Below, one piece after another: positions 111 through 61,102 of a DNA stretch of 64,000 nucleotides. Where the stretch lies: assembly GCF_016924755.1 (NCBI RefSeq), contig NZ_JAFFJX010000001.1, positions 310,001 to 374,000 of the forward strand, in the 5' to 3' direction. How positions within the stretch are numbered: the first letter of the stretch is position 1; each line of letters opens with the position of its first letter. The translations under genes were made by a program, and so were the position numbers. The notes beneath the pieces were generated by a model that made no database searches, was not told where the DNA came from, and saw only the letters and a list, made by a program, of their open reading frames with translations. Source of the stretch: Longitalea arenae (GTDB taxonomy: Bacteria; Bacteroidota; Bacteroidia; Chitinophagales; Chitinophagaceae).

Positions 111-147
111 CGGTTTGTGGTTTGTCGTTTGTGGTTTGTGGTTTGCG
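111..147. repeat. Short tandem word repeat (TTTGTGG-type)
   Basis: Five degenerate copies of a 7-base word of the TTTGTGG type lie between the murA stop and the gmk start. Reverse-complement forms of the same word (CACAAACCATAAAC type) occur at about 9747-9774 and 59832-59857, also between genes. Confidence 0.6.
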
Positions 148-1646: not shown

Positions 1647-1731
1647 AGTTTTGAGATTTAGCGATTTTGAGATTTCATTTAGGTTCTGCGCTTAAACAAA
1701 TCTCAACGTCCCGAAATCTCAAAATTTCTTC
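1647..1731. repeat. Long imperfect inverted repeat of GAGATTT-type words
   Basis: The left arm (1647-1680) holds repeated TTTTGAGATTT words and the right arm (1693-1731) their complements (AAATCTCAAAAT). Together they can form an imperfect hairpin of over 30 bp. Sister copies lie at 52386-52473 and, as a single arm, near 32015-32035. It sits downstream of the DUF4290 stop. Confidence 0.65.
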
Positions 1732-1781: not shown

Positions 1782-2507
1782 TTATTTGTATCTCTTTTTG
1801 AACTTGCCGCCCCGGTCGTTGCGGTTATCACGTCCGCCGCCGCCATCGCGGTTATCGCGCCCGCCCCGGCCCTGGAATTTCTGGCCTCTTTTATTGCGGT
1901 AATCGCCATAACCACCACGGTCACGATCCCGTTCACGGCTTTCATTGGGGCGATGCTGCCGTACATACGGCGTATTGGTAAAGGTGAGCTGCCCATCTGT
2001 AATATTGGTGAGCTCGCCCTGAATGGCGTCGTCGTGCACTGTTTCCTTATGCCAGTTATTATAGGCCAGCTTCATATAATAGGCAATAGCGTTGGCAAAG
2101 CCCTGTCTTTTTTCGCTTACGTCTTCTTTCAACGCTTTATTGATAACCAGCTCAAGGTTTTTGCCCAGGTGAGAAAATTTGGGATAGCGCTTGGGATAGG
2201 GCAGCGGTCCTGGTCTTGATTTTAAGGTCTCCCTTGTGGGAATGGGATAGGGCGAATCAACCGCCAGTTTAAAATCAGAGATGAGGAACAGGTGATCCCA
2301 TAGTTTATGTCTGAAATCTTCCACATTTTTCAGGTGAGGGTTCAGAAAGCCCATCAGTTCTATCACCGCGTAGGCATTGCGTTGACGGGTTTCCTGGTCT
2401 TCAATCGTCAGCAGGTACTCGATCATTTTTTGAATATGCCTTCCATATTCACGCATTACCAGGTGGTTCCTGGTAGTGTTATATTCCATTTCTTTAATAC
2501 TATTCAT
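1782..2507 (-). CDS. DUF4290 family protein with RGG-like basic tail
   Basis: 241 residues, matching the Bacteroidota DUF4290 family (function unknown), which I recall commonly adjacent to murA. The N-terminal 170 residues are a helical globular region (EYNTTRNHLVMREYGRHIQK, then KLWDHLFLISDF and a Pro/Tyr-rich PYPKRYPKFSHLG). From about residue 190 the protein changes to a disordered Arg/Gly/Asp/Asn-rich tail (RGGYGDYRNKRG, FQGRGGRDNR, NDRGGKFKKRYK) resembling eukaryotic RGG boxes, which suggests RNA contact; that is inference. The start at 2507 sits 19 bases after an exact -7 element; Met7 (2489) is an alternative. It is followed by an intrinsic terminator before murA. Confidence 0.9.
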   Translation of the reverse strand: MNSIKEMEYNTTRNHLVMREYGRHIQKMIEYLLTIEDQETRQRNAYAVIELMGFLNPHLKNVEDFRHKLWDHLFLISDFKLAVDSPYPIPTRETLKSRPGPLPYPKRYPKFSHLGKNLELVINKALKEDVSEKRQGFANAIAYYMKLAYNNWHKETVHDDAIQGELTNITDGQLTFTNTPYVRQHRPNESRERDRDRGGYGDYRNKRGQKFQGRGGRDNRDGGGGRDNRNDRGGKFKKRYK

Positions 2508-2526
2508 TCTATAAATATAAAGTAAA

Positions 2527-2534
2527 CAAAAGTA
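2527..2534 (-). promoter_or_regulatory. -7 promoter element for the DUF4290 gene
   Basis: Minus-strand TACTTTTG, an exact TAnnTTTG match, 19 bases before the proposed start codon at 2507. Confidence 0.55.
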
Positions 2535-2555
2535 ACAAAGTAAGTTAACAAAAAG

Positions 2556-2579
2556 AAAAGGCCTTTGTTAAGGCCTTTT
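2556..2579 (-). terminator. Perfect hairpin with T-rich flank, probable terminator
   Basis: AAAAGGCCTT (2556-2565) pairs perfectly with AAGGCCTTTT (2570-2579) over a 4-base loop. On the minus strand it is followed by CTTTTTG. It would stop minus-strand transcripts coming from 2600-3000, where I see no clear gene; it may instead insulate the DUF4290 promoter. Confidence 0.6.
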
Positions 2580-3026
2580 CTATAAAGGATTGGTTTTTCC
2601 ACAGGTTAATTATTTAGCCATGCCGCCAACGTTTGTAAAGGGTTGGAGAGGCACGGATTGATAATGGTAGAAATTATTTATCCGGTTTAATAGATAAGCA
2701 CCTGAAATGTTAATGGTGAAAAAGATTTTTCTGGCTGCAAATGAAACCTTACTGGATAGATTAGCTTACAAGTCAATTCATAGATACAGGAAAATACGGG
2801 AAAGGTTTTTTTAAAATTGGAAGAACTTGGAGCATTTTCACCAAATTATCGAATAATGTTGTATTTACCAACGGGTTAGTTCGATATTTTTTAAACCGGT
2901 ACAAAATAGAGTCCCGTATTTTTAAAAACGGTTATATGATTTAACATTTGACACCTGTGGCTGGTTTAATTTGCATTTAGCCGGGCTCCCCAGCCATTCG
3001 GGCGTCAAAAACTATTAAAATCGGTG

Positions 3027-3034
3027 TACTTTTG
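3027..3034 (+). promoter_or_regulatory. -7 promoter element for gldC
   Basis: TACTTTTG, an exact TAnnTTTG match, 36 bases before the gldC ATG. Confidence 0.6.
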
Positions 3035-3070
3035 CGGTTCAAAATATAAAAAACTGATAATCAAAATAAA

Positions 3071-3418
3071 ATGAGGCAATCCACAATAACTATTGATGTA
3101 GCGCTGGACGAAAAAAATATTCCTGATCAAATATTATGGAAAGCTACCGACAGCACCGCCAACCAGGCCCAGAAGGCCAGGGCCATGATGCTGGCTTTTT
3201 GGGATGCAGCCGATAAATCGGCTTTGCGTATGGACCTGTGGACGAAGGATATGATGGTCGACGAAATGGCTGATTTTTATTATCAAACCATGATGACCAT
3301 GGCCGATAGCTTCAACCGGGCTACCCATCAAACCGAACTGGTTGATATGATGAAGAACTTTGCCAGGGATTTTTATAACCGTTTTCGCGAAATTCAACTG
3401 AAGGAAAATAAATTATAA
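3071..3418 (+). CDS. gldC: Gliding motility protein GldC
   Basis: 115 residues, the usual size of GldC, a small cytoplasmic Bacteroidota protein linked genetically to gliding. Family features seen: an N-terminal beta segment (STITIDVALDEKNIPDQILW), the AKARAMMLAFWD-like helix (here QKARAMMLAFWDAADKSALR) and the strongly conserved DLWTKDMMVDEM, followed by a helix with MADSFNRAT. The exact role of GldC is unknown; in flavobacteria it is needed for efficient gliding. It leads a plus-strand cluster, with yqeY starting 17 bp downstream, so the two are probably co-transcribed from the promoter at 3027-3034. No other gld genes are adjacent; gldH is found 45 kb away. Confidence 0.88.
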   Translation: MRQSTITIDVALDEKNIPDQILWKATDSTANQAQKARAMMLAFWDAADKSALRMDLWTKDMMVDEMADFYYQTMMTMADSFNRATHQTELVDMMKNFARDFYNRFREIQLKENKL

Positions 3419-3896: not shown

Positions 3897-3990
3897 TACA
3901 GGAAGCCGGAAGTCAGCGGCCGGAAGCTGAAGGCCTGGAAGTCAGACATTAGATTCAGCCTCAAACATCACACTTCTGGCTTCAGACATC
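3897..3990. repeat. Intergenic GGAAGTCAG-type word repeat with inverted copy
   Basis: Repeated GGAAGTCAG / GGAAGCTGAAGG words in the left half (3902-3945), and the complementary CTTCTGGCTTCAGACATCAG in the right half (3971-3990), just ahead of the cvpA-like start. It can fold into an imperfect hairpin. Confidence 0.55.
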
Positions 3991-8716: not shown

Positions 8717-9592
8717 ATGTTTAAATTGCGAATTATGAAGAAATTGGTTGTAACAGCACTCCTGTTTAATGCCGTACTATGTGTGCAAAAGGTTACTGCC
8801 CAATATGAAAGTATTGTTCAGCAAGGTGAGTTTGGGATATCAGCGGGAGCCGCGCATTATTTTGGCGACCTCAATACAAGAGCAAAACTCAACAGGCCTA
8901 AACCTGCCTTCGGGGTGTTCTTTCGTAAACAATTCGGCAACTATACAGCATTACGTGTAGCCGCACATTACGCCCGCATTGGCTATTCTGATATTTATAA
9001 CACCCAAAATGAATATCAGCGCAGACGCAACCTGAGCTTCAACTCCAATATCTTCGAGCTCACACTGCAGGGCGATTTCAACTTCTTTAAATTTGTTCCG
9101 GCAGATCCATATTATAACTGGACCCCATATATAACGCTGGGCGCCGGTATCTTCAGCTATGATCCGTTTGCTTACCTGAATGGCGATAAATATTTTCTGC
9201 GTCCGCTCGGAACAGAAGGCCAGGGTACCGCGGCTTATCCCGACCGGAAGCCCTACAACACGATGGCCATGTGTTTCCCCATTGGCGTGGGCGTAAAGTA
9301 TGCGCTGAACGAGCGCATGAACCTGGGCTTTGAAGTGGTTTACCGCTATACCACTACCGATTACCTCGATGATGTGAGTAAGACCTATGTAGGTTCTGAT
9401 AAGTTTCCGCCATTGCCCGACGGCACACCCTCTGCAGCTCAGTTATTACAGGACCGTTCTTACGAAACGGGCGATATCATTGGCATCGAAGGCCGGCAAC
9501 GGGGTTATTCCAGACAAAGGGATGCCTACGTGCTGGCTGAACTTACTTTGTCGTTCAACCTTACTTCATATCGTTGTCCAACTGCAAATTAG
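8717..9592 (+). CDS. DUF6089 family outer-membrane beta-barrel protein
   Basis: 291 residues. The signal peptide is MKKLVVTALLFNAVLCVQKVTAQ if translation begins at Met7 (8735); ATG 8717 adds six residues. The mature part is a beta-rich OmpW-like barrel: FGISAGAAHYFGDLN at the first strand, repeated aromatic/Gly strands (YITLGAGIFSYDPFA, PIGVGVKYALNERMNLGFEV) and a terminal strand AELTLSFNL. DUF6089 proteins are Bacteroidota-specific and I recall them regularly next to uppS-bamA. Function unknown. A strong terminator follows at 9701-9729, so the transcript that began upstream probably ends here. Confidence 0.85.
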   Translation: MFKLRIMKKLVVTALLFNAVLCVQKVTAQYESIVQQGEFGISAGAAHYFGDLNTRAKLNRPKPAFGVFFRKQFGNYTALRVAAHYARIGYSDIYNTQNEYQRRRNLSFNSNIFELTLQGDFNFFKFVPADPYYNWTPYITLGAGIFSYDPFAYLNGDKYFLRPLGTEGQGTAAYPDRKPYNTMAMCFPIGVGVKYALNERMNLGFEVVYRYTTTDYLDDVSKTYVGSDKFPPLPDGTPSAAQLLQDRSYETGDIIGIEGRQRGYSRQRDAYVLAELTLSFNLTSYRCPTAN

Positions 9593-9700
9593 TTATGGTT
9601 TATTGTTTTCAGTTCATGGTTCTTTAAGTGCAGTTGCCCGTACATGCATTATATAACCACTGATTGACAGATAGTTACAAAATATAGTATTGAAATAAAC

Positions 9701-9729
9701 AAACAGCCCGAATAACATTCGGGCTGTTT
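9701..9729 (+). terminator. Intrinsic terminator after the DUF6089 gene
   Basis: Perfect 13-bp stem (AAACAGCCCGAAT at 9701-9713 and ATTCGGGCTGTTT at 9717-9729) with a 3-base loop and T-rich end. Confidence 0.9.
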
Positions 9730-9746
9730 GCATTCAGGCGTTTAAC

Positions 9747-9774
9747 GACAAACCATAATCCACAAACCATAAAC
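9747..9774. repeat. Short word repeat (ACAAACCATAA-type)
   Basis: Two copies of ACAAACCATAA in tandem, between the terminator and the uppS promoter. It is the complement of the word repeated at 111-147. Confidence 0.5.
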
Positions 9775-9784
9775 TTGTTTTTCG

Positions 9785-9792
9785 TACCTTTG
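9785..9792 (+). promoter_or_regulatory. -7 promoter element for uppS
   Basis: TACCTTTG, an exact TAnnTTTG match, 19 bases before the uppS ATG. It starts the uppS-bamA part of the cluster anew after the terminator at 9701-9729. Confidence 0.65.
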
Positions 9793-9811
9793 TGCCCTTC
9801 AAAAAAAGGGT

Positions 9812-10573
9812 ATGCAAAGCCTAAGGGAGCAAATTAACCTTCAACGACTTCCTCGCCATATAGCAATTATTATGGACGGGAATGGCCGCTGGGCAAAAGA
9901 AAAGGGGCAGGACCGCCTCTATGGCCATTTTCATGGCGTGGAAAGCGTGCGTAATATCGTAGAGGGTTGCGCCGAACTGGGTGTTGAGTACCTTACCCTG
10001 TACGCATTTTCTACCGAGAACTGGGACCGCCCGCAATATGAGGTTACCGGCCTCATAGAACTATTGGTAGAAACCATTCGCAAGGAAACCGAAACACTGA
10101 ATAAGAACAACATCAAACTGCATGTGATAGGCGATGTAAAAATGTTGCCCGAATATGCACAAAAGGAACTGAACGAATCGCTGCAGATAACCAGCCAGAA
10201 CACGGGGTTGAACCTGGTAATGGCCCTCAGTTACAGCAGCCGTTGGGAACTGGTACAGGCCGTACAGCATATTGCCGAAGATGTAAAGGCCGGCAAGATC
10301 GATCCTGCGGCCATCACCCAAAATACCCTGCAACAATACCTGGCTACCAGTAATTTTCCTGATCCCGAATTAATGATTCGCACCAGCGGGGAATACCGCA
10401 TCAGTAACTTTTTATTATACCAATTAGCTTATGCAGAATTGTATTTCACTAATGTTCGCTGGCCCGACTTCCGGAAGGAGAACCTGTATGAAGCCATCCT
10501 CGACTTTCAAAGGCGTGAAAGACGGTTTGGAAAAACCGGTGAGCAGGTACAAAAGGAACAAATAAACGGATAA
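9812..10573 (+). CDS. uppS: Isoprenyl transferase (undecaprenyl diphosphate synthase)
   Basis: 253 residues. It makes the C55 polyprenyl diphosphate that becomes the lipid carrier for peptidoglycan and O-antigen. The cis-prenyltransferase signature IAIIMDGNGRWAK has the catalytic Asp22, followed by the GHFHGVESVR and LYAFSTENWDRP motifs and the C-terminal IRTSGEYRISNFLLYQLAY and FTNVRWPDF motifs. All key residues are present. Cytoplasmic face of the inner membrane. It precedes bamA by about 105 bp and has its own promoter. Confidence 0.97.
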   Translation: MQSLREQINLQRLPRHIAIIMDGNGRWAKEKGQDRLYGHFHGVESVRNIVEGCAELGVEYLTLYAFSTENWDRPQYEVTGLIELLVETIRKETETLNKNNIKLHVIGDVKMLPEYAQKELNESLQITSQNTGLNLVMALSYSSRWELVQAVQHIAEDVKAGKIDPAAITQNTLQQYLATSNFPDPELMIRTSGEYRISNFLLYQLAYAELYFTNVRWPDFRKENLYEAILDFQRRERRFGKTGEQVQKEQING

Positions 10574-16180: not shown

Positions 16181-16573
16181 ATGGTGAAAAAGTTTACGCT
16201 AAAAAAAGAGGAAAGGCTGAAGCGCCGCAAGATCATTGAGCAGTTGTTCAGTGAAGGCCGTGCTGTGGCTGCTTTTCCCATCAGGGTGCAATATAAACTG
16301 GTTGACCAGCTGTTAACGGTTCCCCTCCAGGCCGGCTTTAGTGTCAGTAGCCGGAACTTCAAAAAGGCAGTAGACCGCAACCGCATAAAGCGACTGATGC
16401 GGGAAGCGTATCGCCTGCAAAAAGCGCCCCTGGAACAGGCTTTGCAAACAAAGCAGCAACAACTGGCGTTATTCCTGATCTATACCGGCAAAGAACTGCC
16501 GGAATTCACTGTGGTAAAAGAAAAGGTGGAGGTGGTGCTGAAAAAGCTGTTGCAAACGGTAACTGCCATGTAG
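16181..16573 (+). CDS. rnpA: Ribonuclease P protein component
   Basis: 130 residues. The protein subunit of RNase P, which matures tRNA 5' ends. It has the basic N-terminus (KKFTLKKEERLKRRKIIEQLF), the GFSVSSRNFKKAV strand and the RNR motif DRNRIKRLMREAYR. Start ATG 16181 gives a typical length. It sits 92 bp after rpmH behind a terminator and 36 bp ahead of yidD. Confidence 0.96.
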   Translation: MVKKFTLKKEERLKRRKIIEQLFSEGRAVAAFPIRVQYKLVDQLLTVPLQAGFSVSSRNFKKAVDRNRIKRLMREAYRLQKAPLEQALQTKQQQLALFLIYTGKELPEFTVVKEKVEVVLKKLLQTVTAM

Positions 16574-16609
16574 TTATATACAAGCCGGGAATTATTAATC
16601 AATTGAGAA

Positions 16610-16840
16610 ATGAAAGTATTGCTTCGTATTTTGGGTTTTCCGTTCATTGCATTGATCAAACTGTATCAATGGATCATTTCTCCGATCCTGGGGCCTAAAT
16701 GCCGCTTCACACCCACCTGTTCACAATATGCAATTGAAGCCCTTAAAAAGCACGGCATATTTAAAGGACTATGGCTTACGGTTAAACGGTTAAGCCGCTG
16801 TCATCCCTGGGGCGGGCATGGGTATGATCCGGTGCCTTGA
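16610..16840 (+). CDS. yidD: Membrane protein insertion efficiency factor YidD
   Basis: 76 residues. Signature: the [20 protein letters not shown] segment, with the Cys-containing continuation [15 protein letters not shown] and the C-terminal [17 protein letters not shown], all canonical for YidD. It is a small amphipathic membrane-associated protein thought to assist YidC insertion. It follows rnpA by 36 bp in the standard order. Confidence 0.97.
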
Positions 16841-16865
16841 AGAAATGCAGTAAGATGTATGGGAA

Positions 16866-17030
16866 CCGGAATTTCGAGCTTCGCATTTCCATAAAAGCGA
16901 AGTATGAAGTAAGAAATATGAAGAACCTGTATTTCGTGCTTTGTGTTTCATATCCAAACTATTAAAGGTTTCGGAATTCGGACCTTCTTACTTCCTACCT
17001 CATACCTCTTACTTCGATCCTCCTACTTTT
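16866..17030. repeat. Intergenic word repeats (GAAGTAAGAA / TTCTTACTTC type)
   Basis: The spacer between yidD and the convergent lipoprotein gene is largely made of words such as GAAGTATGAAGTAAGAA (left part) and CTTCTTACTTCCTACCTC, CATACCTCTTACTTCG (right part), which are mutually complementary and can pair imperfectly. The same word is found in the start of gldH (about 49009-49043). Confidence 0.55.
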
Positions 17031-21048: not shown

Positions 21049-24000
21049 ATGAATTTGTATGTAAAAACGTACAGGCATAGTACGTCATTCATTGCTATTG
21101 GATACCATCACCGGTATTCGCTTTCGAGAAACAAAGCATTGATTATGAGAATTTCTATCCTGGCTATATTACTCACCTTCAGCGGATTGCTGATGGCCCG
21201 GCCGGGCAGTGCACAGGACCTGAACAAGATCATGATCTCTATCGACCTGAAGAACGTAACGCTAAAGCAGGCTTTCAAAAAAATTGAATCGCTCACCCAA
21301 TTAGCCTTTACTTACCGCACCGTTGATGTAGCCGCTTATGAGCGGATCAATTATTCGGCTACCAACACTTCTGTAACGGTCGTACTGCAGGATCTGTTGG
21401 AACATACTGGTTTAAAATACGACCAGGTGAACAGCAATATCATTATAAAAAAGGCCGGGAACAACGTGCAATCTGATGAAATATTTACTCCGGAAGCAAT
21501 TTCTTTTGATGGGGGTATACGAGGCCGGATAAGCGATGAAACCGGTGCGCCTTTGCCCAATGCTTCCATTGTGCTGCTGGGCACCGACAAAGGTACTGCT
21601 GCAGATACCAAAGGAGAATTTACAATAACAGGCATAAAAGCGGGCAGCTATCGCCTGCAGGTATCAGCGATCGGTTTTCAAACGATTATAAGGGATGTAA
21701 CAGTAAGGGATAATGCAGTGGCCGAGGTGAACATCGGTTTGGTCTCAGGCAATAACAAGCTCGATGAAGTGGTAGTGACCGCCCTCGGCATCAAACGCGA
21801 AAAAAGATCATTGGGTTATTCAACACAGGAGATCAGGGGTGAAGACCTGTCGAATACCCGGCAAACAAATGTGTTGAATGCCTTGCGCGGCAAAGTGGCC
21901 GGCGTTCAGATCAATAGTGGCGGCGGCGCGCCGGGACAGGGAACGCGGATCATAATCAGGGGTATTAAATCGCTGGCACCAAATAAAAACAATCAGCCGC
22001 TATTTGTAATTGACGGGATCCTGATCGATAACAGCACCACTGCCATCAACGATGCAGGTTCCTTACGCGGGTTATCGAATCGTGCTTCCGATATCAATCC
22101 CGACGATATTGAATCTATGTCGATCCTCAAAGGCGGAGCTGCAACTGCTTTATATGGTCAGGCCGGTTCAAACGGCGTGGTGGTGATCACCACTAAAACC
22201 GCCAAAGCCGGTAAAATGCGTGTGAACTTCACAACTACCTATGGCATTGACGAAGTGAATAAATTTCCGGAAGTACAAAGGAAATTCAGCCAGGGTTATG
22301 TAGGCGCTACCTCTTTCGTACCGGAATACGATCCAAAAAGCTTCTGGCCCAGTTGGGGACCAACTGTTGAAGAGGCTAAAGCGATCGATCCTACGCATCC
22401 TGATCAGATCTACCATCATTATAAACAGGGTTTCAAAACCGGCAACCAGTTCCGTACCAGCATTAATATGTCGGGTGGTACCGATAAAGCCCTGCTCACT
22501 TCTTCGGTTTCCTATTTCAAACAGAATGGGGTGCTGCCTAATTCTGATTATAAGAACGTCTCTGCCCGCCTGAGCGGTCAGTTCAAGTTCAGTGATAAAT
22601 TAAGGTTCAGCCCGGGCCTTTACTTTATTAACTCAGGCGGTTACCGCGTAAACGCCGACCGCTATAATGAAAGTTTAACCTACTGGTCGCCGCGGTGGAA
22701 TGTAATGGATTATATAAAACCGGATGGTACACAAAATGCATACGGCAATGATAACCCGGTATATGGTACTGCCACCAATAAATTCAAAGACAATGTTAAC
22801 CGGATCATTGGAAATTTAGCCCTTACTTACTCACCATTTACATGGCTCGATGTAGATTATAAATTCGGCATGGATTACTATGCTGATTTTCGCCGCCATG
22901 CAGCGCCTGGTCCTAAAGGCCTGATCGGTGAACAGGTATTTGGCGATAACAGCCTGGGTTTTGTACATGAGTACCGCATCGGCAATCGCATACTGAACTC
23001 AAATGTGATGGCCAGTTTCAAACATGAATGGTTCGGGAAGCTGAATACGGTGCTGCGGATAGGGAATGAAGTGCGCGATCGAAAATCCAGCCGTTTAACT
23101 GCAAGTGGCACCGAGCTGGATATACCGGATATGCTAACATTGAATAACGCTAAAGTGCGTACCAACAGCCAGGCCGAAGAACGATACCGGATCGTAAGCG
23201 CCTATGGGGATCTTACCCTGGGCTGGAATAATTACCTGTTCCTGAACCTTACAGGCCGTAATGAATGGTCATCTACCTTGCCGGTAGCCAATAACTCCTT
23301 CTTTTATCCTTCGGTAAGTTTATCATATGTTTTCTCGGATCATTTTTCACTGCCTGGCTGGATAAATTTCGGAAAAGCACGGGTATCGGTTGCGGAAGTA
23401 GGTAAGGATACCGACCCCTATGAGCTCAGCAGGTACTACAATTCTACCACACTTACCTCGAGCGGCCAGATCATGTGGACACGCAGTGACCAGGTAGGTG
23501 ACTCTTTGCTGAAACCTGAAAGAACCTCAACGGTAGAAGCAGGTGTTGAATTGAAATTATTCAACCGCATCGGCATCGACTTCAGCTGGTATAAACTAAA
23601 CAGCCGCGACCAGATCATTCCGGTTAGTTTATCGCCCACCACTGGCTTTACCAGCTATATTATCAATGCCGGTGAAATTGAAAACAAAGGGATCGAATTG
23701 GTGCTTACCGGTACAGCAGTTAAAACAAAAAATTTCAGCTGGGATCTTACCCTGAATTATACACGCAACAGGAACAAGGTAGTTGGCATTCGTGAGGGGC
23801 TTACTGAAATTGTGGTAGGGTCGCATTTTGGTTATTCAAGTTCCAATGCCACCCTGAAATATGTGCCCGGTTCAGCTGTTGGCAATATGTATGGCACCTC
23901 TTACCAGCGGTATTATGGTTCTAAAACAGATGATGGAGTGACCGTTGATAAAAGCCTGCCGGTGGTAATTGCTACCTCAGGCAGCAATGCCGGCTTCCCG

Positions 24001-24594
24001 GTAAGAGATACCCGGCAGCGTTTGCTTGGTAATTCGCAACCCGACTGGATCGGCGGCATCACCAACACACTTAGCTGGAAAAATATCTCCCTGTCATTTT
24101 TGTGGGAGACCCAACAGGGGCAGGACAGGTATAACCAGTTAGGCAATTTCATGAGTGCTTTTGGTATTGCCAAATACACCGAGAACAGAACCGAGACCAT
24201 TGTTTTCGACGGCGTATTGGCGAATGGTTCTCCCAATACCCAGGCCGTTTATCTGGGCATGGGTAAAGTAAATGGCACGGGCCGTGATTATGGCCAGGGC
24301 TTTTACCGGAATGTGCATCGTGGTGTTACAGAAAATTTTATAGAGGATGCCAGCTGGGTACGTTTGCGGAATGTAAATCTCAGTTATGCGGTGCCTGCAA
24401 AGTTTTTTAAAGGAACACCCATTCAGGGCGCTTCAGTTACCTTCACGGGGAATAATCTTTTATTGTTTACCAATTACACCGGCTATGATCCTGAAACCAG
24501 CAGTTCCAGTGTAGAAAGCAATGCAGATGGCTTTACCGGTTTTACATACCCGGCGCTGCGCTCATACCTGTTTAGTGTAAACATCAACTTTTAA
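21049..24594 (+). CDS. SusC/RagA family TonB-linked outer-membrane receptor with STN domain (copy 1)
   Basis: 1181 residues. The signal segment MRISILAILLTFSGLLMARPGSAQ (33-56) follows a 32-residue N-terminal extension. An STN signalling domain comes next (about 60-130: MISIDLKNVTLKQAFKKIE), then a carboxypeptidase-regulatory-like domain (about 155-235: GRISDETGAPLPNASIVLLG), the LDEVVVTALGIKRE box, a plug (LNALRGKVAGVQINSGGG, INPDDIESMSILKGGAATALYG) and a large barrel ending SVNINF. It imports a bound oligomer with its SusD partner, powered by TonB. The STN domain suggests signalling to the FecR encoded upstream. The substrate is unknown. Confidence 0.96.
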   Translation: MNLYVKTYRHSTSFIAIGYHHRYSLSRNKALIMRISILAILLTFSGLLMARPGSAQDLNKIMISIDLKNVTLKQAFKKIESLTQLAFTYRTVDVAAYERINYSATNTSVTVVLQDLLEHTGLKYDQVNSNIIIKKAGNNVQSDEIFTPEAISFDGGIRGRISDETGAPLPNASIVLLGTDKGTAADTKGEFTITGIKAGSYRLQVSAIGFQTIIRDVTVRDNAVAEVNIGLVSGNNKLDEVVVTALGIKREKRSLGYSTQEIRGEDLSNTRQTNVLNALRGKVAGVQINSGGGAPGQGTRIIIRGIKSLAPNKNNQPLFVIDGILIDNSTTAINDAGSLRGLSNRASDINPDDIESMSILKGGAATALYGQAGSNGVVVITTKTAKAGKMRVNFTTTYGIDEVNKFPEVQRKFSQGYVGATSFVPEYDPKSFWPSWGPTVEEAKAIDPTHPDQIYHHYKQGFKTGNQFRTSINMSGGTDKALLTSSVSYFKQNGVLPNSDYKNVSARLSGQFKFSDKLRFSPGLYFINSGGYRVNADRYNESLTYWSPRWNVMDYIKPDGTQNAYGNDNPVYGTATNKFKDNVNRIIGNLALTYSPFTWLDVDYKFGMDYYADFRRHAAPGPKGLIGEQVFGDNSLGFVHEYRIGNRILNSNVMASFKHEWFGKLNTVLRIGNEVRDRKSSRLTASGTELDIPDMLTLNNAKVRTNSQAEERYRIVSAYGDLTLGWNNYLFLNLTGRNEWSSTLPVANNSFFYPSVSLSYVFSDHFSLPGWINFGKARVSVAEVGKDTDPYELSRYYNSTTLTSSGQIMWTRSDQVGDSLLKPERTSTVEAGVELKLFNRIGIDFSWYKLNSRDQIIPVSLSPTTGFTSYIINAGEIENKGIELVLTGTAVKTKNFSWDLTLNYTRNRNKVVGIREGLTEIVVGSHFGYSSSNATLKYVPGSAVGNMYGTSYQRYYGSKTDDGVTVDKSLPVVIATSGSNAGFPVRDTRQRLLGNSQPDWIGGITNTLSWKNISLSFLWETQQGQDRYNQLGNFMSAFGIAKYTENRTETIVFDGVLANGSPNTQAVYLGMGKVNGTGRDYGQGFYRNVHRGVTENFIEDASWVRLRNVNLSYAVPAKFFKGTPIQGASVTFTGNNLLLFTNYTGYDPETSSSSVESNADGFTGFTYPALRSYLFSVNINF

Positions 24595-24605
24595 ATTGGA
24601 GTAAC

Positions 24606-26036
24606 ATGAGAAGCCTAATATATATTGCGAGTTTTTCTCTATTCGTTGTATCAATAACATCCTGTAAAAAATACCTCGACGTAAATACCAATCCCAATCA
24701 GCCAAACAGGGCAACTATCAATGGCTTACTTACCCGGGTAACAGAGAATACCGCATTGAATGTTTACCGGGTATCAACCAATATCACTTCTTATTACGTC
24801 CAATACCTGGCTTCGTCAAACACCGCTTCGCCATTGGATACCTATGATGATGTCGATGGCAGCACCACCTGGACAAATCTGTATGATAACATGACCGATA
24901 TCTATGACCTGGAAAAGGTAGCAGCCGACAGAGGCGCTATACAATACCGGGGAGTAGCTAAGGTCTTAATGGCCATGAACCTGCAGTATGTTCACAGTCT
25001 CTGGGGCGATGCACCGTATTCAAAAGCATTTAACCTGTCGACCTTAACGCCGGCCTATGACAATGCGCAAAGTTTATTTCAAAGTTGTTTGCAGTTGCTC
25101 GATGAAGGTATTACTTTATTGAATGAACAAAATCCGCCTTACCCTATACCGGGTGAAAGCGGTAGCAGCAGAAGCCCTGACCTTATCCACAAAGGCAATG
25201 CACAGGCCTGGATCCGTACGGCCCATGCATTAAAGGCGCGCTTATTGAACCAATTGAGCAAAACCAATCAATACAACACGAACGTTATTTTCGGCGAACT
25301 GGCTGCTGCCTATACTTCAAATGACCACGACGCTTTTGTCAGCACCTGGGATGTGCGCAATCCATGGAACCAGGTTGCTGTAAACAACAGGAACCTCTTG
25401 CTCGATGGCTGGTTATCGGAGCAGTTCATCGATGCTATGAATGGAAAGACCTATGGGGTTTTTGATCCCAGGCTTCCATTGATGACAGACACTACCAAGT
25501 ATGGCGATTACAGGGGTACACCCAACGGCAAAGGCCGTTCCGGTTCGGGTGTGAGCTTTGAAGAGACCTATATCAATTTAACAGGGTTCTATTCCAGTTC
25601 CAATTCACCGGTGTTTATAATTACTTATGATGAGTTGAAATTCATTGAAGCCGAAGCAGCTTTCAGGGCTAACAATAAACCAAGGGCCTATGCTGCTTAC
25701 CTGGAAGGCATCAATGCCAATATGAATAAAATGAAGGTGGCCGCTGCCAACCGGGATGCTTATGTTAATCATGCATCCGTATCAGTTGGCGAAACAAATC
25801 TTACGCTTGACCATATATTCAAGGAGAAATATAAAGCGCTCTTCCTGAACCCTGAAAGCTGGAACGATGCCCGGCGGTATAATTATCAGTATAAAGATTT
25901 CACGCTGCCTTTGAATGCAGTAGCGGGTAATTTTATCCGCCGCATGGTATATCCCAGTGTTGAAACCAGCCGAAATGGCGCCAATGTACCTCCCGGTATA
26001 ACGGATGTAACCCAGCGCTTCTGGTGGGACCTATAA
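24606..26036 (+). CDS. SusD/RagB-type surface lipoprotein (copy 1)
   Basis: 476 residues with lipoprotein signal MRSLIYIASFSLFVVSITSC (lipobox ITSC, Cys20), followed by KKYLDVNTNPNQPN, the hallmark N-terminus of the SusD-like proteins of the PF12771/PF12741 type. The TPR-like helical body includes LQYVHSLWGDAPYSKAFN and YDELKFIEAEAAFRANN, and the C-terminus FWWDL. It acts as the lid of the SusC1 transporter. It begins 11 bp after susC1, so it is co-transcribed. Confidence 0.94.
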   Translation: MRSLIYIASFSLFVVSITSCKKYLDVNTNPNQPNRATINGLLTRVTENTALNVYRVSTNITSYYVQYLASSNTASPLDTYDDVDGSTTWTNLYDNMTDIYDLEKVAADRGAIQYRGVAKVLMAMNLQYVHSLWGDAPYSKAFNLSTLTPAYDNAQSLFQSCLQLLDEGITLLNEQNPPYPIPGESGSSRSPDLIHKGNAQAWIRTAHALKARLLNQLSKTNQYNTNVIFGELAAAYTSNDHDAFVSTWDVRNPWNQVAVNNRNLLLDGWLSEQFIDAMNGKTYGVFDPRLPLMTDTTKYGDYRGTPNGKGRSGSGVSFEETYINLTGFYSSSNSPVFIITYDELKFIEAEAAFRANNKPRAYAAYLEGINANMNKMKVAAANRDAYVNHASVSVGETNLTLDHIFKEKYKALFLNPESWNDARRYNYQYKDFTLPLNAVAGNFIRRMVYPSVETSRNGANVPPGITDVTQRFWWDL

Positions 26037-26294
26037 AATTGTGCAGTAAGTAATATACGCTCAGACAGTCACCTATACAAGGCTCCAGGGCCGCATGAGC
26101 AACATGAGAAAATCAAGTTGACCGTTAGTTCCGGTTTAAGCCGGCGTCCGGGAGCAGAAAGGATATAAGCTTATTCTTTTCATGCTTCCGGATTTTTTAT
26201 AAAAAGTCCTTACCTGAATAGGACTTCCTGCTGAATGTTTCGTCTATTAAGTATATACATCACCCATATAATACCAAACCAAAACTTAGTTCCT

Positions 26295-29200
26295 ATGTAC
26301 ATGACAACCTTTAGGCCTCCCTGGCAATCGCTCCTGAAGCAAAAGATGCTGATCATGAGAATTGCTGTGTTGGCCATGAGCCTGGCTGTTAGCGGACTGC
26401 TGATGGCCCGGCCAGGCAAGGCGCAGGATCTGAATAAGATCATAATATCCATTAACCTTAAGAACGCCACCTTAAAGCAGGCTTTTAAAAAAATAGAAAC
26501 GCTTACCCAGCTGGCTTTTACCTACCGTACTGCAGATGTAGCCGAAGTTCAAAACATCAATTATGCAGCCAGCAACGCTTCTGTATCCAGCATTTTGAAC
26601 GATCTGTTGCAGCATACCGGTTTAAAGTACAATCAGGTTAATAATAACATAGTTATTAAAAAGATCAAAAAAAACGATACCTATGCTGAAATCACCATTG
26701 GCGATGACTTGCTTTTCGATGGAGGGATACGTGGAAGAGTAACGGATGAAAGCGGTGCACCGCTTGCGAATGCCTCTGTATTCGTGGTTGGAACAGATAA
26801 AGGAACAGCCGCAAATGCCAATGGGGAATTTGTCATAAGCGGTTTAAAAGCGGGAAAATACCAGCTGCAGGTATCTGCCGTGGGCTTTACAACGCAGCTT
26901 AGAGATATTACTGTAAAAGACAACGAATCGTTAGATCTAACGGTGGCCCTTAAAAGCGGTACAGGTAAACTGGAAGAGGTTATTGTTACCGCATTGGGTA
27001 TTACCCGTAAGGAAAGATCAGTTGGTTATTCAACGCAGGAAATAAAAGGCGACAATCTCACGATTGCCAAAGAACAGAATGTAATTGGCAGTCTGGGCGG
27101 AAAGATTGCCGGTGTACAGCTTACCGGATCATCAGGCGCCAGTATGGGCGGCACCCAGAAAATTCAGATTCGCGGAACGAATTTTTTAACTGGCGGTGGG
27201 GAGCCATTGATAGTCGTTGATAATACGCCTGTTTCCAATACAAATTATGCAGGAAGGAACGGCCGCGACTATGGTAACCTGGCCCAGGACATCAATCCTG
27301 ATGATATTGAGTCGATCAATGTATTGAAAGGGCCGGCGGCATCAGCGCTCTATGGTTTACGTGGGCAATTCGGCGTTATATTGATCACTACACGTAAAGG
27401 AAAGAATACCCAAAAACCTGTGGTGAATTTCAGCTCTGCCTTTTCAGTAGAAAAGGCAGGCAATTTTATGCCATTACAGGATATTTACGGGGCCGGATCA
27501 AGCTTGAACTTTCCAACAATAAATATCAATGGGGTTGCTACCAAATATGTAGACGGTGAGTGGGATGAAAGCTGGGGGCCCAAAATGGATGGCACGCCCG
27601 TAAGGCATCAGTACAGCTTTTATCCCGGTGATCCTGATTTTGGAAAAGAAACGCCTTTTGTGCCGCAACCAGACAATATCAAAGATTATTTTGAAACCGG
27701 GCATACCTGGAACAACAGTATATCCTTTGCGGGGGGCAATCAAAATACCTCCTTCCGCTTGTCATATAACAATACCGATATCAAAGGCATTGAACCGAAT
27801 ACCTGGTTAAAAAGAAACAACCTGTCTTTTAACGGGTCATTGAGCGTTACGCCCAAGCTGGTAATAAGCACCAGTTTGAATTACGCCAATAATAAAGGTC
27901 AGCGACCGGCGCAGGGCTATCAAAGCCTGGGTTCGCGCAACATGTACCAATGGTTTCAGCGCAATTTGGATATGAATAAATTAAAGCAATATAAATACGC
28001 CGATGGCACTTTTTACCATTGGAATGTAGGTGCTCCCAATAGCCAGGGGGTTTATACCGGCCGAACAAGTCCTATAGACTGGAACAATCCTTATTTCGAT
28101 GCCTATGAAAACACTTCGCACGATGCCCGCGACAGATTATTTGGCAATGTGGGGGTATCCTATACGATACTGCCAGGTTTGAAGGTGAACGGTTTTATCC
28201 GTCAGGATGGGTTTGTGCAAAACCTCGATGGCAGGAATGCAGAAGGTGGTCGCGGCGTTCCGTCATTCTGGATCGGTAAGTACGAATCAAAAGAAATGAA
28301 TTATGAATTTCTCGCCCAGTATAATAAAGAAATTGGCCGCTTTTCTTTAGCAGCCAATCTGGGTGGAAATATAATGACACAACGTTACAGCTATTTGCGG
28401 GAAGAGACCGTTGGTGGATTTGTTTCTCCCGGCTTTTATAATATTGCCAATTCGCTCGACCGGCCCCGCGTAAGCAATGTATTACGGAGAAAAGAAGTGA
28501 GAAGCGCCTATGGCGCCGTTACCCTGGGCTATAATAATATATATTTTATTGACGCCAGCCTGCGAAGAGATATTTCATCGGCGCTTCCTGAAAATAACAA
28601 TGCGTATTTGTACCCATCGGTTTCCGCCAGTGTTGTATTTAGTGAGTTGTTGAAACTGGCGCCCGTCTCCTATGGTAAATTAAGGGCCAGCTTCGCCCAG
28701 GCAGGTTCAGATATAGATATTTATCAAACCACCAATGCATTTGCATTGCGCGAACCCTATGGTACCAATTTTCCCATGTACGTTCCCGATACTTTGAAGA
28801 ACCCCGACCTCAAACCTTCTTTAGGTACCGCTTATGAAGCCGGTTTGGATATGCGGTTCTTACAGGACCGCGTTGGCTTTAGCTTTACCTGGTATTACCA
28901 GCAAAACGAAAATGCGGTCATGAACCTCGATGTGTCGGGTGTAAGCGGGTACTCAAAATACGTGATCAACGCAGGTAATATTCAGAACAAGGGCTTTGAA
29001 CTAACAATTAGCGGTACACCGCTTAAGATGGCCAACCTGAACTGGACAAGCAGCTTTAATATTGCCAGGAATACCAATAAGATCAAGGAATTATATCCTG
29101 GTATCAATTCCCTGATCCTCGATCAGAACCGCTATGCAAGTGTGGATATGTTCCTGCAGGCCAATGTAAACGAATCGTTTGGTTCGCTGGTAGGAAATGC

Positions 29201-29855: not shown

Positions 29856-29865
29856 AAAAAAGATC

Positions 29866-33401: not shown

Positions 33402-34421
33402 TGCTGCTATGGTACAAACTGATTCGGGTACTGGTTACACAACGTATGGGCAATATCGTTATAAAAAATCGAAATAGTTTTTGGCCGGAGTGCTAACTCA
33501 AAAAATACTATACCGGCCAATTTTGAACCTCTAATGATTAATCAACCTGCCTGTAAACGTTATGTTGCTCACCGTCAGGGAACAATTTGTAATTTTTAAT
33601 TGTGTGTTTAATACGACAACCTAAAGACAAGCCACCACTTTCTCCCGGTCTGCTCCCGGCCAGCGCCAGGACTTCTTCGGGATTTCTTCGGGATTTCCCA
33701 AAGAAAACCGGGTGTTGCCATTGGAGCGCCCCGAAGAAGTCCCGAAGAATTTGAGGTAAAAGCCAGCGCATCCCTGGAGCCATAAATGACGCGCCCAAAA
33801 ATGGAAACAAGTAAATGTGGTAGTCGAAAGGTTTCCACTGGGTATAGGGTAGCAACTGATATAATTGGAAAAGAATTACAAGAACGGATTGTATATAAAG
33901 AGCGCAGAACTGCCGGGGCAAATGCCTGGATCCTTATTTATTTTATGTTGTGTAAACAGGAGATCGAAATTCGAGGATAACAGGTAATTAAAGAACAAGC
34001 TGGCTACCTGCATTTGGAAAATGATTCTTTAGCCTCGCTGCTAAAAGGGAATAGTTGGAAAATGAGAGAAAAAGAGCTTGAAATAATTTGGAAAACCAAA
34101 AGAATTGGATAGCTTAGTGGTGAGAGAGGCATGTTGGTTGCCGTTACGACTTTCATACAACTTACACACTTCACCAGTTACACATTAATCATTTATTGGT
34201 TCGGTTGCAAATTCGGAAACACCGTTATTGTAGTAAACTAAAATTGCTTACTGGTAATATTACCGTTTCATTCATTTAGCAGTTTTTTGTCTTTAACTGC
34301 CCTTAAACGTTTTTTAAAAAGCGGAAGGCAGCTGTATGCTAAAAATAATTTGCGATGATTTACTATATCCGTACACTATGCATGTGGGTGAAATTTTGTT
34401 AACCAGCTTTAAATTGTAAGT
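33402..34421. other. 1-kb stretch without a convincing gene
   Basis: Between the GntP-type permease and the small conserved gene at 34422. Three short open frames (33538-33921 minus, 33608-33838 minus, 33786-33980 plus) overlap a repeat of CTTCTTCGGGA words and are probably spurious. Contents noted: an inverted word repeat at 33655-33755 and a 12-base palindrome GGTAATATTACC at 34253-34264. It may be a decayed region. Confidence 0.55.
33655..33755. repeat. Inverted repeat built of CTTCTTCGGGA words
   Basis: The left half contains CTTCTTCGGGATTTCTTCGG; the right half contains the complement CCCCGAAGAAGTCCCGAAGA. The arms can form a hairpin with a loop of about 30 bases. It explains the apparent short open frames here. 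Confidence 0.6.
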
Positions 34422-44730: not shown

Positions 44731-44734
44731 TTCA

Positions 44735-44890
44735 ATTGGTAATCACAATTGACAATCGGCAAAGATCAATAGACTGTTGGCGCTTAGTTGTTTAGGATTG
44801 ATGATCCCAATTTGACTGTACAGGCAATGACTTTTTTTAATGCCTTTACCATTCAACCTTGTCTATTGCCTGTTGTCCTTTGCCTATTGG
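44735..44890. repeat. Intergenic CAATTGAC / ATTGCCTG word repeat
   Basis: Between the SDR gene and batD. The left part has CAATTGACAATCGGCAAAG and CAATAGAC; the right part has GTCTATTGCC and CTTTGCCTATTGG, so the halves are complementary and can fold. The rest of the 233-317 bp spacer up to the batD promoter holds nothing else I recognise. Confidence 0.55.
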
Positions 44891-44941
44891 TTTAACTGTC
44901 CTTTAACGCTTAGATGTTGAGCGGCCTAAACCGGCAAAATT

Positions 44942-49089: not shown

Positions 49090-49215
49090 TCAGGTTATAA
49101 GGGTGCAAGCGCTCGGGGCCGCAGGTGTAAGGCTCAGGTTAGAGGTGAAAAGCGCAAGGCTGAAGGCACAAGGCTTGCATGATAGCGGGTATTCCTTGTA
49201 CCTTGGGCGCTTGTA
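49090..49215. repeat. Intergenic GTGCAAGG/AAGGTACAAGG-type word repeat
   Basis: Between yicC and gldH: GGGTGCAAGCG, GTGTAAGGCTCAGG, GCGCAAGGCTGAAGGCACAAGG on the left, and CCTTGTACCTTGGGCGCTTGT on the right. The halves are complementary and can pair imperfectly. Confidence 0.55.
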
Positions 49216-51422: not shown

Positions 51423-52370
51423 ATGAAATTTCCTGCTCCCGTTTCGGTAAAATGGATAGCCAATTTGATAGGCGCTGAGCTTACAGGCAATACAGAAGGA
51501 ATAGCTACAGGTATAAATGAGATCCATAAAGTAGAACCCGGTGACCTGGTATTTGTAGATCATCCCAAATATTACGATAAGTGTTTGCAATCTGCAGCCA
51601 CTTTTATCATTATCAACCAGAAAACAGATTGTCCTGCAGGAAAAGCATTGCTGATCGTTGACAAACCTTTCGATGCGTATCAAACCATTGTACGACATTT
51701 CCGGCCTTTCAAACCTGCCGATAAACCGGTGAGCGACTCGGCTACTATTGGTGAAGGAACCTATATTGCGCCCAACGTTTATATCGGGCACGAAGTAATT
51801 ATTGGCAGGGATTGTTTCATCGGTCCCAATGTTACCATATTAGACCACTGTGTTATAGGCGATAACGTGATCATACAATCGGGTACGGTAATAGGATCAG
51901 ACGCTTTTTACTACAATACCAGGAAGGACCGTGAGGTTTGGTATAAGAAGATGGAAAGCTGTGGCCGGGTGATCATTGAAAATGATGTGGAGATCGGTGC
52001 AGGTTGTACCATCGACCGGGGGGTATCGCACGATACCCGCATAGGCCGGGGCAGTAAACTCGATAATATGGTTCATATTGGTCATGATACTGTTTTGGGC
52101 ACAAACTGTTTACTGGCTGCACAGGTGGGCATAGCGGGCGCCACAACGCTTGGCAATGGGGTTATTTTGTGGGGGCAGGTTGGGGTTTCCAAAACACTTA
52201 CCATTGGTGATAATGCGGTACTGCTTGCCCAAAGCGGGGTGCCTTCATCCCTGGAAGGTGGTAAGGTATATTTTGGAACGCCGGCTGAGGATGCTGTTGC
52301 CAAAAAAAGAGAGCTGGTGTGGGTGAAGCGGATACCTGAGATCTGGGAAAAAATCAAAGCACTCAAATAG
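51423..52370 (+). CDS. lpxD: UDP-3-O-(acyl)glucosamine N-acyltransferase LpxD-like
   Basis: 315 residues from ATG 51423. An N-terminal uridine-binding domain ([38 protein letters not shown]) is followed by a left-handed beta helix of hexapeptide repeats (about 105-290: [40 protein letters not shown]), and catalytic His in [12 protein letters not shown]. It adds the second acyl chain to UDP-glucosamine in lipid A synthesis. The protein is somewhat shorter than the usual 340 residues at its C-terminus. It stands alone without lpxA/lpxC, so it could be a second copy of the family. Confidence 0.9.
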
Positions 52371-52385
52371 TGATCTGTAATTTTT

Positions 52386-52473
52386 GATTTCGAGATCTTG
52401 AGATTTGGTGATTTGTTCCAATTCGAACAGTCCGGTAAATCGCAAAATCGCAAAATCTCAAAATCTCGAAATC
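52386..52473. repeat. Long imperfect inverted repeat of GAGATTT-type words
   Basis: Left arm (52386-52415) GATTTCGAGATCTTGAGATT and onward, right arm (52441-52473) CGCAAAATCGCAAAATCTCA and onward; they pair over about 30 bases with a few mismatches. It lies between convergent lpxD and the LytTR regulator gene, so it may act as a bidirectional terminator. Sister of the element at 1647-1731. Confidence 0.7.
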
Positions 52474-52491
52474 CCTGAAACGCCTGCTTAG

Positions 52492-57346: not shown

Positions 57347-57620
57347 GCGATATCTAATATTGTTAAACTGGCCGCATGTAATTCGCCTTAAAAATTTTCA
57401 TCGCGCTTTAAAATGAAATTGCTCAAAAATTTCTAAGGCTCATTTCATGCGATCTTTAATATTGTTAAACTGGCCGCATGGAATTCGCCTTAAAAATTTT
57501 CATCGCGCTTTAAAATGAAATTGCTCAAAAATTTCTAAGGCTCATTTCATGCGATATCTAATATTGTTACACTGGCCGCATGGAATTCGCCTGCGGCTGA
57601 TTTCATGCGATCTTTAATTT
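57341..57620. repeat. 102-bp tandem repeat spanning the start codon and upstream region
   Basis: Units begin at 57341, 57443 and 57545 (102-bp spacing), with a shortened fourth part at 57601. The first unit overlaps the start codon (57344-57346) of the gene at 56264-57346. Each later unit carries a CAT (minus-strand ATG) followed in that strand by AAA TGA, i.e. a two-codon mini-frame. Within each full unit CCTTAAAAATTTT pairs with AAAATTTCTAAGG, giving a hairpin. Third unit is internally shortened (56 bp). Confidence 0.9.
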
Positions 57621-59764: not shown

Positions 59765-59831
59765 AGTCGTCAATCGTGAATCTGGCAATGGTGAATGGAC
59801 TGCCGTGGTAAGACCGAATGACCGGTAACCA

Positions 59832-59857
59832 CAACCCCTAAACTACAAACCATAAAA
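59832..59857. repeat. Short word repeat (ACAAACCATAA type)
   Basis: CTACAAACCATAAAACC and a nearby partial copy, between pheS and the dehydrogenase gene. A sister of the words at 9747-9774 and 111-147. Confidence 0.4.
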
Positions 59858-59861
59858 CCTA

Positions 59862-60893: not shown

Positions 60894-60897
60894 GCGG

Positions 60898-60905
60898 CAA
60901 AGATA
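60898..60905 (-). promoter_or_regulatory. -7 promoter element immediately before pheS
   Basis: Minus-strand TATCTTTG, an exact TAnnTTTG match, ending 4 bases before the pheS start codon. The same spacing is seen at murI. Confidence 0.55.
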
Positions 60906-61102
60906 ATAGTTCTTAGTTCAAAGTGCTGTTACCGGCCGCCAGTTTCCAGTTACCGGTTCTAAAGGATCAGTACAGGTGGCCGGTTTCCAGATGCGGGCCA
61001 TCTGTCTCCCTGTAATCTGTAACAGCTGCCTTTTCATGTATCCGTTCAGCTTTTCCTTTTTTCCATTACCACCTTGTTTCTTATTCATTTATCTTGCATC
61101 GT

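Follow-up and report, generated by a model that had tools for sequence, protein, structure and literature searches.

Dispersed arrays of seven- and eight-base words in the intergenic spacers of Longitalea arenae and its relatives

The spacers between genes in Longitalea arenae and its relatives hold short, imperfect tandem arrays of seven- or eight-base words, often paired as the two arms of a hairpin, and orthologous spacers often carry another word in another species. The pattern is real, its key prediction is supported, and a simple local mechanism is insufficient. We read these repeats as dispersed short tandem-repeat arrays that grow and turn over in gene-free DNA, and put the probability of this reading at roughly 0.45; a function as RNA hairpins at gene ends, if there is one, is secondary. 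For decades heptamer repeats have been described one at a time, each as a single word in a single lineage.

The window, the whole stretch of 64,000 nucleotides that was analysed, belongs to a L. arenae genome of 7.28 Mb in 40 contigs (L. arenae below). Nine further genomes placed in the same genus (G001 to G009) were used as relatives, one of them a single contig of 9.03 Mb and another, G008, only 61% complete. Named relatives identified by way of the PheS protein belong mainly to Chitinophagaceae and Sphingobacteriaceae. Orthologous spacers were compared among nine genomes (L. arenae, G007, G003, G005, G004, G001, G006, G009 and G002). Gene order over the window is largely kept in the eight relatives of this set, and median protein identity to L. 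arenae is 92.3% for G007, 85.6% for G003 and 83.2% for G005. Genes were called with a simple longest-ORF heuristic, and the words were grouped by hand into 13 families.

Arrays in the window and their vocabulary

A sequence-only reading of the window had named at least seven repeated words of 7-11 bases in its spacers, most with complementary copies, and had suggested slippage at hairpins as one process behind them. The stretches and their positions were essentially right when the sequence was re-checked. Tested singly against 1000 dinucleotide shuffles, with direct pairs at lags 7 and 8 and inverted 8-mers counted, about half of them stand far above the shuffles and half do not.

The TTTGTGG stretch at 105-150 has 25 direct pairs against 0.8 expected, a count reached by none of the 1000 shuffles. 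It is a forward-strand array of family A (GGTTTGT/GGTTTAT) at 111..147 with period 7 and 4.9 copies (TRF 112-145, 92% matches), placed just before the 3' end of a murA-like gene on the reverse strand (186-1490), and its 23 further matches elsewhere in the genome all lie within query positions 106-149. GAGATTT occurs twice. At 52380-52480 there are 31 direct pairs against 0.6 and an excess of inverted 8-mers (p=0.012), in a family F hairpin (52385..52475) that lies between convergent genes; at 1635-1745 there are 18 inverted 8-mers against 1.9, reached by no shuffle, with p=0.052 for direct pairs, in a family F hairpin of period 8 (1649..1728) with GAGATTTT words on the left (~1649-1675) and their complement on the right (~1698-1728). 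The GAAGTAAGAA stretch at 16866-17030 has 16 direct pairs against 0.6 (inverted p=0.032) and is a family D hairpin between convergent genes (16897..17028), with GAAGTATGAAGTAAG on the left (~16897-16924) and CTTACTTC...ATACCTC on the right (~16984-17028). The spacer called there, 16573-17023, is partly coding because a short ORF (~16609-16841), conserved in the spacers of all eight relatives, fell below the ORF cut-off; by its look it may be yidD. The CTTCTTCGGGA stretch at 33655-33755 has 19 inverted 8-mers against 1.2 (p=0.001) and no direct pairs at lags 7 and 8, because its period is 11; the hairpin, TTTCTTCGGGA / TCCCGAAGAAG, lies at 33669..33755, and a second TTTCTTCGGGA-type locus of period 11 lies on the same contig at 597936-598549.

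The remaining stretches are weaker when taken alone. Family A words at 9593..9775 form a weak left arm (~9593-9622) and a right arm (~9748-9775; p=0.061 for TTTGTGG at 9740-9780) that flank a terminator-like hairpin, GCCCGAAT...ATTCGGGC, and the right-type arm of family A on the reverse strand at 59827..59860 (TRF 59827-59856) gives p=1 when 59825-59862 is shuffled. The degenerate family E array of GGAAGTCAG type at 3897..3990 gives p=0.061 and is plainer in the orthologous spacer of G007. In the family B hairpin at 44733..44893, with CAATTGACAATC on the left and TTGTCTATTGCC on the right, the CAATTGAC stretch gives p=0.18 for direct pairs and p=0.042 for inverted 8-mers, and the family J words (AAGGTGC/AAGGCTG; the GTGCAAGG stretch) at 49090..49215 are not significant (p=0.23). 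The spacer at 60894..61093 was labelled with family C words in the nine-genome comparison. Several of the weak stretches become plain in the orthologous spacers of relatives. That most named stretches have complementary copies was too strong a statement, as the three TTTGTGG stretches, GGAAGTCAG and GTGCAAGG yielded no shared inverted 8-mers.

A search of the window against Rfam 15 gave 0 matches above the gathering score. The window also contains a 102-base tandem repeat (57336-57592; 2.5 copies, 96% matches) that is not a word array, in a spacer of 485 bases in L. arenae and 178-293 bases in the eight relatives. At 21049-31368 lie two adjacent pairs of TonB-receptor and SusD-like genes, the SusD label being inferred from position. 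Both pairs are present in L. arenae and G007, the first is well matched in G003 and G006 and the second in G005, G004, G001 and G009, and neither was found within the fetched stretch of G002; they look like alternative cassettes at one place.

The claim of word arrays is strong only beyond the window, because the named stretches are mixed when tested singly whereas the lag excess over 545 spacers (107,789 bases from 850 kb of the window's contig) is far above chance. Runs of six or more matches number 165 at lag 7, against 35.2 in shuffles (mean of five) and 31.9 scaled from coding DNA, and 128 at lag 8, against 30.4 and 22.1. Self-matches at these two lags are 4-5 times those of shuffled controls, with an excess also at lags 14, 16 and 21. 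One period-7 word class was found in up to 23 spacers, against at most 5 in three shuffles, and one period-8 class in up to 14, against 2. Lag 7 is above the local background per kb in all nine genomes and lag 8 in most. In 100-kb samples lag 8 has no excess in G003 (0.37 vs 0.43 background) and a slight one in G001 (0.68 vs 0.58); in 500 kb of G003 the excess is present (47 vs about 22-30 at neighbouring lags). A period of 7 or 8 therefore stands, and the full range of 7-11 bases does not: the 9-mer AGTCAAAAG and the 11-mer TTTCTTCGGGA are rarer, separate types. One period-9 AGTCAAAAG array (L200:2398-2456) lies two genes from a RAYT-like gene.

Written in left-arm orientation, the families are A GGTTTAT, B GGCAATA, K GGCAGAA, V GGTCAAT, C GTTACCG, D GAAGTAA, E GAAGTCA, I GAATATT, J AAGGTGC, F GAGATTTT, T GTGCTAAT, H GTTGACAA and M GTTATTGA. 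Of 984 spacers, 187 could be assigned a family by these words; three shuffles gave 6, 5 and 12 such spacers, and among 1352 coding slices 32 were labelled. Arrays occur in 246 of 1277 spacers across the nine genomes, about a fifth. By the lag-7 and family-word counts, tandem units of about seven bases thus exceed chance mainly in intergenic DNA. A single genome is not limited to one or a few words: the genus has 13 families, and 11 of them occur in 540 L. arenae spacers. We rejected a network of words as evidence of common descent, since the 154 of 155 recurrent period-7 classes linked by single substitutions are near random (144 linked on average in random sets of 155 words; 154 reached in 1 of 500 sets). 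The period-8 classes are more telling, with 34 of 38 linked against a random mean of 2.6 and a maximum of 6, yet this is weakened as evidence of descent because variants within one array also make such links.

Replacement and spread of words among species

The sequence-only reading had proposed checking whether words change while positions stay, and they do: orthologous spacers often carry another word. Over 308 orthologous spacers, the ratio of same to different families in comparison with L. arenae is 29:5 for G007, 11:11 for G003 and 9:15 for G005, that is, another word in 5 of 34, 11 of 22 and 15 of 24 spacers. Across the nine genomes, 43 spacers gave 185 labelled orthologous pairs, 77 of the same family and 108 of different families, where 11% sameness is expected by chance. 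Words are inherited for a while and then change.

Individual spacers illustrate this. Spacer 9592-9812 has TTTATGG-type words in L. arenae, G007 and G003, GGCAATA-type words (family B) in G005, G006 and G002, and GTTACCG-type words (GTTACCGG-type) in G004 by eye, where the automatic label is none. Spacer 52370-52492 carries GAGATTT (F) in L. arenae and G007, GAAGTAA (D) in G003, G004, G001 and G002, and GTTGACA (family H) in G009. At 49090..49215 the words belong to J in L. arenae and G001 and to C (GTTACCGG) in G007, G005, G004 and G009, and at 60894..61093 to C in L. arenae, G007 and G005, J in G003 and G004, V in G001 and H in G006 and G002, with no label in G009. The spacer orthologous to 59827..59860 has B words in G003, G005 and G002, and six of eight relatives have B or K words in the spacer orthologous to 44733..44893.

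Same-spacer occupancy reaches 585, against a mean of 393 and a maximum of 459 in 2000 length-stratified permutations, a count that includes inherited arrays and the spacer 2507-3071, where the call in nine of nine genomes seems to reflect sequence conservation and not an array. A stricter count, of spacers that hold different families in the two genomes, is above chance for L. arenae and G005 (15 vs 7.0, p=0.0005), G007 and G005 (15 vs 8.2, p=0.006) and G007 and G003 (14 vs 9.2, p=0.04), and not significant for L. arenae and G003 (11 vs 7.3, p=0.08), G003 and G005 (11 vs 8.8, p=0.24) or L. arenae and G007 (5 vs 9.2, p=0.98). Alignments show unconstrained spacer sequence to be largely turned over at these distances, so the persistence may be due to permissive places and not to a site-specific machine. 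The words are thus not unrelated to each other in position and structure, and the shared design that had been proposed can be drawn more sharply, as the same two periods, the same left/right orientation and the same kind of place.

Each species has amplified its own set. Exact three-unit matches over whole genomes were counted with overlaps, as matches and not loci, so that one long array weighs much. In the order L. arenae, then G001 to G009, the counts are 4, 182, 39, 12, 54, 1, 13, 6, 7 and 52 for GAAGTAn; 112, 3, 189, 20, 307, 23, 16, 6, 18 and 16 for GGCAATn; 174, 147, 27, 29, 5, 9, 4, 103, 2 and 13 for GTTACNR; 289, 0, 14, 3, 0, 5, 32, 41, 0 and 0 for TGCTRATn; 154, 224, 17, 31, 0, 0, 99, 279, 37 and 2 for GGTSAAT; and 231, 223, 69, 163, 16, 19, 84, 363, 0 and 3 for GATTTNGN. 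Counts of a word thus vary between species by one to more than two orders of magnitude. Outside the genus, GAAGTAn gave one match each in 2 of 29 genomes, and the other five patterns, tried in four genomes, gave four matches of GGTSAAT in one genome and none otherwise. Controls with the reversed pattern give almost no matches, apart from GTTACNR and GGTSAAT (e.g. 124 and 99 in G001), for which the control is not clean because each reversed reads as the other family. Family composition also differs among the fetched sequences of L. arenae, G007, G003 and G005 (chi2 94.8, 27 df, reached in 0 of 5000 permutations).

What recurs is the word. A blastn comparison among the 984 spacers gave 2339 pairs. 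Only 26 of them join spacers of the same genome over 25 or more bases with under half of the match tandem, and several of these 26 are other repeats; same-word arrays at different places seldom share loops or flanks. With so little sharing outside the words, one copied mobile unit was rejected. Two exceptions have a shared core beyond the words: GGAATACAGGTTTTG beside family T in L. arenae and G007, and a G007 element with the core AGTGCGTGCCGCACATAGG in two spacers. In 75 of 87 cases both arms of a spacer are of one family, where 16.7 would be expected. They mirror each other's word variants in one of five testable families, C (31 spacers; reached by 0 of 1000 shuffles), and not beyond chance in B, D, F and T, which are small samples of 7-12 spacers each, and we therefore rejected arm-to-arm templating as a general rule. 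Given the little non-word sharing and the rare mirroring, the recurring unit is a word and not a fixed element, and one arm is not generally a plain copy of the other. A test for a gradient of age along 331 loosely defined arms was uninformative, with 0.705 for both the outer and the inner parts (p=0.94).

These results bear on the earlier suggestion that slippage at hairpins is purely local, each site inventing its own word. Imperfect units, a clean period and paired arms fit such a process, and a preference of slippage for heptamers has been proposed (Mrazek 2007, as described in PMC4679880). As the sole process it is not supported, since the same words recur at many sites in sets that differ by species, and since four of the five families lack mirrored arms, in the small samples given above; we put it at long odds. 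Slippage probably lengthens arrays and does not explain the shared vocabulary. Because arrays of the same word share words and seldom loops or flanks, the words must also spread within genomes.

We favour growth and turnover of dispersed arrays, which would proceed in four steps. An array would become longer or shorter by one word per step through slippage in replication or repair; short copying or template switching between arrays would carry a few words, and not the loop, to other spacers; a word that spreads well would grow common in one lineage; and old arrays would decay and be replaced, so that the word at a site changes and the permissive site stays. Decay and replacement would be expected, as most of the spacer from stop codon to promoter presumably tolerates change. 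Against this reading, no intermediate copying event was caught in these genomes, the closest of which (median protein identity 92%) has diverged too far to let single steps be made out in neutral spacers. The family T core and the G007 element would fit a transposed unit, the variant mirroring in family C would fit hairpin-templated copying, and the reading does not by itself predict the orientation rule described below.

Words would also spread if hairpins were mobilised in trans by a tyrosine (Y1/HUH) transposase, in the way RAYTs move REPINs, and each of the ten genomes of the genus has one strong Y1_Tnp match of 74-82 bits. In L. arenae this gene encodes 142 amino acids within an aromatic-amino-acid operon, between a DAHP-synthase-like gene and aroB-like genes (named from their translations), and the preceding spacer holds a GGTCAAT hairpin; in G003 a GGTSAAT array lies about 130 bases before the Y1 match. 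An array beside a Y1 gene is weak evidence, however, because about a fifth of spacers carry one. The small Y1 gene (L199:1474-1902) is IS200-like at 56.2 bits (cut-off 55), with the word hairpin directly before it (L199:1364-1462). L. arenae has a second, RAYT-like gene (77.2 bits, cut-off 80), but such a match occurs in only 7 of 10 genomes and is missing from the word-rich G001 and G007 (and from the incomplete G008), and among the 984 spacers we found no common palindromic core or end, and little sharing outside the words. We hold transposition of this kind to be quite unlikely.

The facing orientation and its possible causes

Where an array has two complementary arms, the G-richer word is usually on the left and its complement on the right. 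Without use of any vocabulary, 60 of the 1277 spacers in nine genomes have paired complementary arms, 50 G-left, 6 C-left and 4 neutral, and these are not independent because orthologues are included; one-letter shuffles of the same spacers gave no such arms. By gene context the G:C:neutral counts are 21:4:1 (--), 14:1:1 (++), 13:1:1 (+-) and 2:0:1 (-+). L. arenae alone has 9 G-left, 2 C-left and 1 neutral (p=0.065). When spacers are grouped by word class, 29 of 33 classes have a G-left majority, 3 have a C-left one, and 1 is neutral. No such bias separates A from T (28 A, 31 T, 1 equal). Judged by family words, 54 two-arm spacers follow the rule and 5 reverse it, 4 in family B and 1 in family E. 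In other genera, among 80 named loci, all 9 paired-arm spacers are G-left, with words such as GTGAAAG, AGGATTGC and AGTGGAAT. Among the matches listed, neighbouring word sites within about 105 bases, judged by eye, converge in 28 pairs and diverge in one, which sits between two convergent pairs.

A search for terminators (a GC stem followed by a T run) in spacers of at most 600 bases gave 352 hits, against 41 in one shuffle; only 22 of the 352 are in array context, and others sit between arms. Terminator-like stems in array context are G-left (17 G, 3 C, 2 equal), whereas plain stems in the same spacers are not (116 G, 152 C, 62 equal of 330), and an orientation inherited from terminators was therefore rejected. 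Transcription skew alone is weakened as a cause, as the rule also appears in ++, -- and divergent spacers. This objection to skew is limited, and so is the argument from divergent spacers made below, by the vocabulary-free segments: in their right half the divergent spacers are unbiased (C 20, G 18) and the -- spacers weakly biased (C 58, G 44).

The arrays might be RNA elements under selection: bidirectional hairpins at transcript ends, serving as terminators or as stabilisers of the 3' end, in which any sequence will do if it folds. Array spacers of L. arenae do fold better (median z -2.74, n=35) than plain ones (-1.3, n=60), the arrays are close to stop codons (medians 15 and 31 bases) and occur somewhat more often in convergent spacers (42 of 181) than in divergent spacers (28 of 209), and a terminator-like stem often lies at their centre. 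On the other hand, plain terminator stems lack the G-left rule, arrays also occur in divergent spacers, where no transcript enters and family words keep the same direction (28 consistent, 6 reverse), only one type of arm is present in 159 of 246 array spacers, and folding alone requires neither tandem words nor a shared vocabulary. Selection for RNA as the general explanation seems unlikely to us; an RNA role may exist at some sites, and it leaves the tandem words unexplained.

Of all these features the orientation rule is the least well explained; a process that extends facing 3' ends would give it. At a double-strand break the facing 3' ends could gain a G-rich word, by a template or by fold-back priming, and then be joined. 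This predicts exactly the facing G-rich strands seen here, in word classes and in other genera, with the bias in G/C and not in A/T, and it lets both arms share a word without mirrored variants. Yet the two arms seldom adjoin (the gap between them has a median of 39.5 bases and reaches 324), the counts from L. arenae alone are small, and four of the five reversed two-arm spacers are in family B; we regard this putative process as improbable. A more specific form, in which a trans-acting enzyme with a short template or fold-back priming would add G-rich units of 7-8 bases to both sides of a break in the manner of a telomere, with lineage-specific templates, is in our estimate very improbable; were it true, spacers would be rewritten with the current vocabulary while genes stay put. 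Candidate enzymes for word writing that are conserved in the genus are the Y1 protein, with a match in all ten genomes, and a reverse transcriptase resembling those of type XIII retrons (PADLOC 1.1e-186), with open frames of similar length (507-529 amino acids) in 9 of 10. At the retron-like locus (L204:1156-2670 and 2690-2940) a long near-perfect hairpin and flanking inverted repeats tgacagaggg/ccctctgtca lie upstream of the gene. An RNA search beside the Y1 and reverse transcriptase genes gave two matches only, far below the gathering score. If the orientation rule survives independent sampling it constrains the mechanism, because plain terminator stems in the same genomes lack it.

Comparison with known repeat systems

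In most genomes heptamers are described as the most frequent long simple repeats, and a seven-base polymerase contact has been proposed (Mrazek 2007, via PMC4679880). Close parallels are the Xanthomonas GGGAATC and Nostoc GGGGA(C/T)T heptamers, described as intergenic, imperfect, dispersed and close to an ORF, with 70 and 75 paired sites in 'convergent orientation', once per strand (PMC4692102). We take 'convergent' in that text to mean the same facing G-strands as in our 50 of 60 paired-arm spacers. At the same genes, the Xanthomonas arrays of two species are also reported to differ in sequence and length (PMC4692102). Unlike those systems, which as described have one word per genome, the genus studied here has 13 coexisting families and exchanges words at orthologous sites, and period 8 is as typical as 7. 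Their words are presented as G-quadruplex-forming, whereas GAAGTAA, GGCAATA, GTTACCG and GTGCTAAT have runs of one or two G.

Replacement of a word also has a parallel. The P6b stem of the Nostoc tRNA-Leu intron carries seven-base words on both arms, Class I TDNGATT or Class II NNTGAGT, and one class is reported to have replaced the other independently several times (PMC4476775); that account concerns one intron locus and two classes, unlike the many spacers and many words here. Intergenic direct repeats of the heptamer TAACTGA are described from Beggiatoaceae, Cyanobacteria and five Bacteroidetes, and some Bacteroidetes spacers hold other heptamer repeats that relatives lack at the same place (PMC4679880). 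In contrast to our arrays, TAACTGA is described as a single word, mostly just upstream of start codons, with one inverted case in the main genome. REP and REPIN sequences with their RAYTs (PMC3116915, PMC3733652) are likewise extragenic, hairpin-forming and amplified by lineage; we found no fixed palindromic core of the kind described for them, and the recurring unit here is a word of 7-8 bases.

Heptamer arms, facing orientation and word replacement thus each have a published precedent in the sources cited. In the open-licence PMC literature we found no report of their combination with many coexisting words and lineage-specific amplification, and no paper on such arrays in Chitinophagaceae or Niastella. 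A genus with many coexisting words that share period and orientation, are amplified unequally and take each other's place at fixed sites is a comparative system, and comparison within it could separate what is constant, namely the period, the facing orientation and the site, which would reflect the machine, from the word, which is free. Arrays of one or two words are known in other bacteria, and those described here are an unusually varied version of them.
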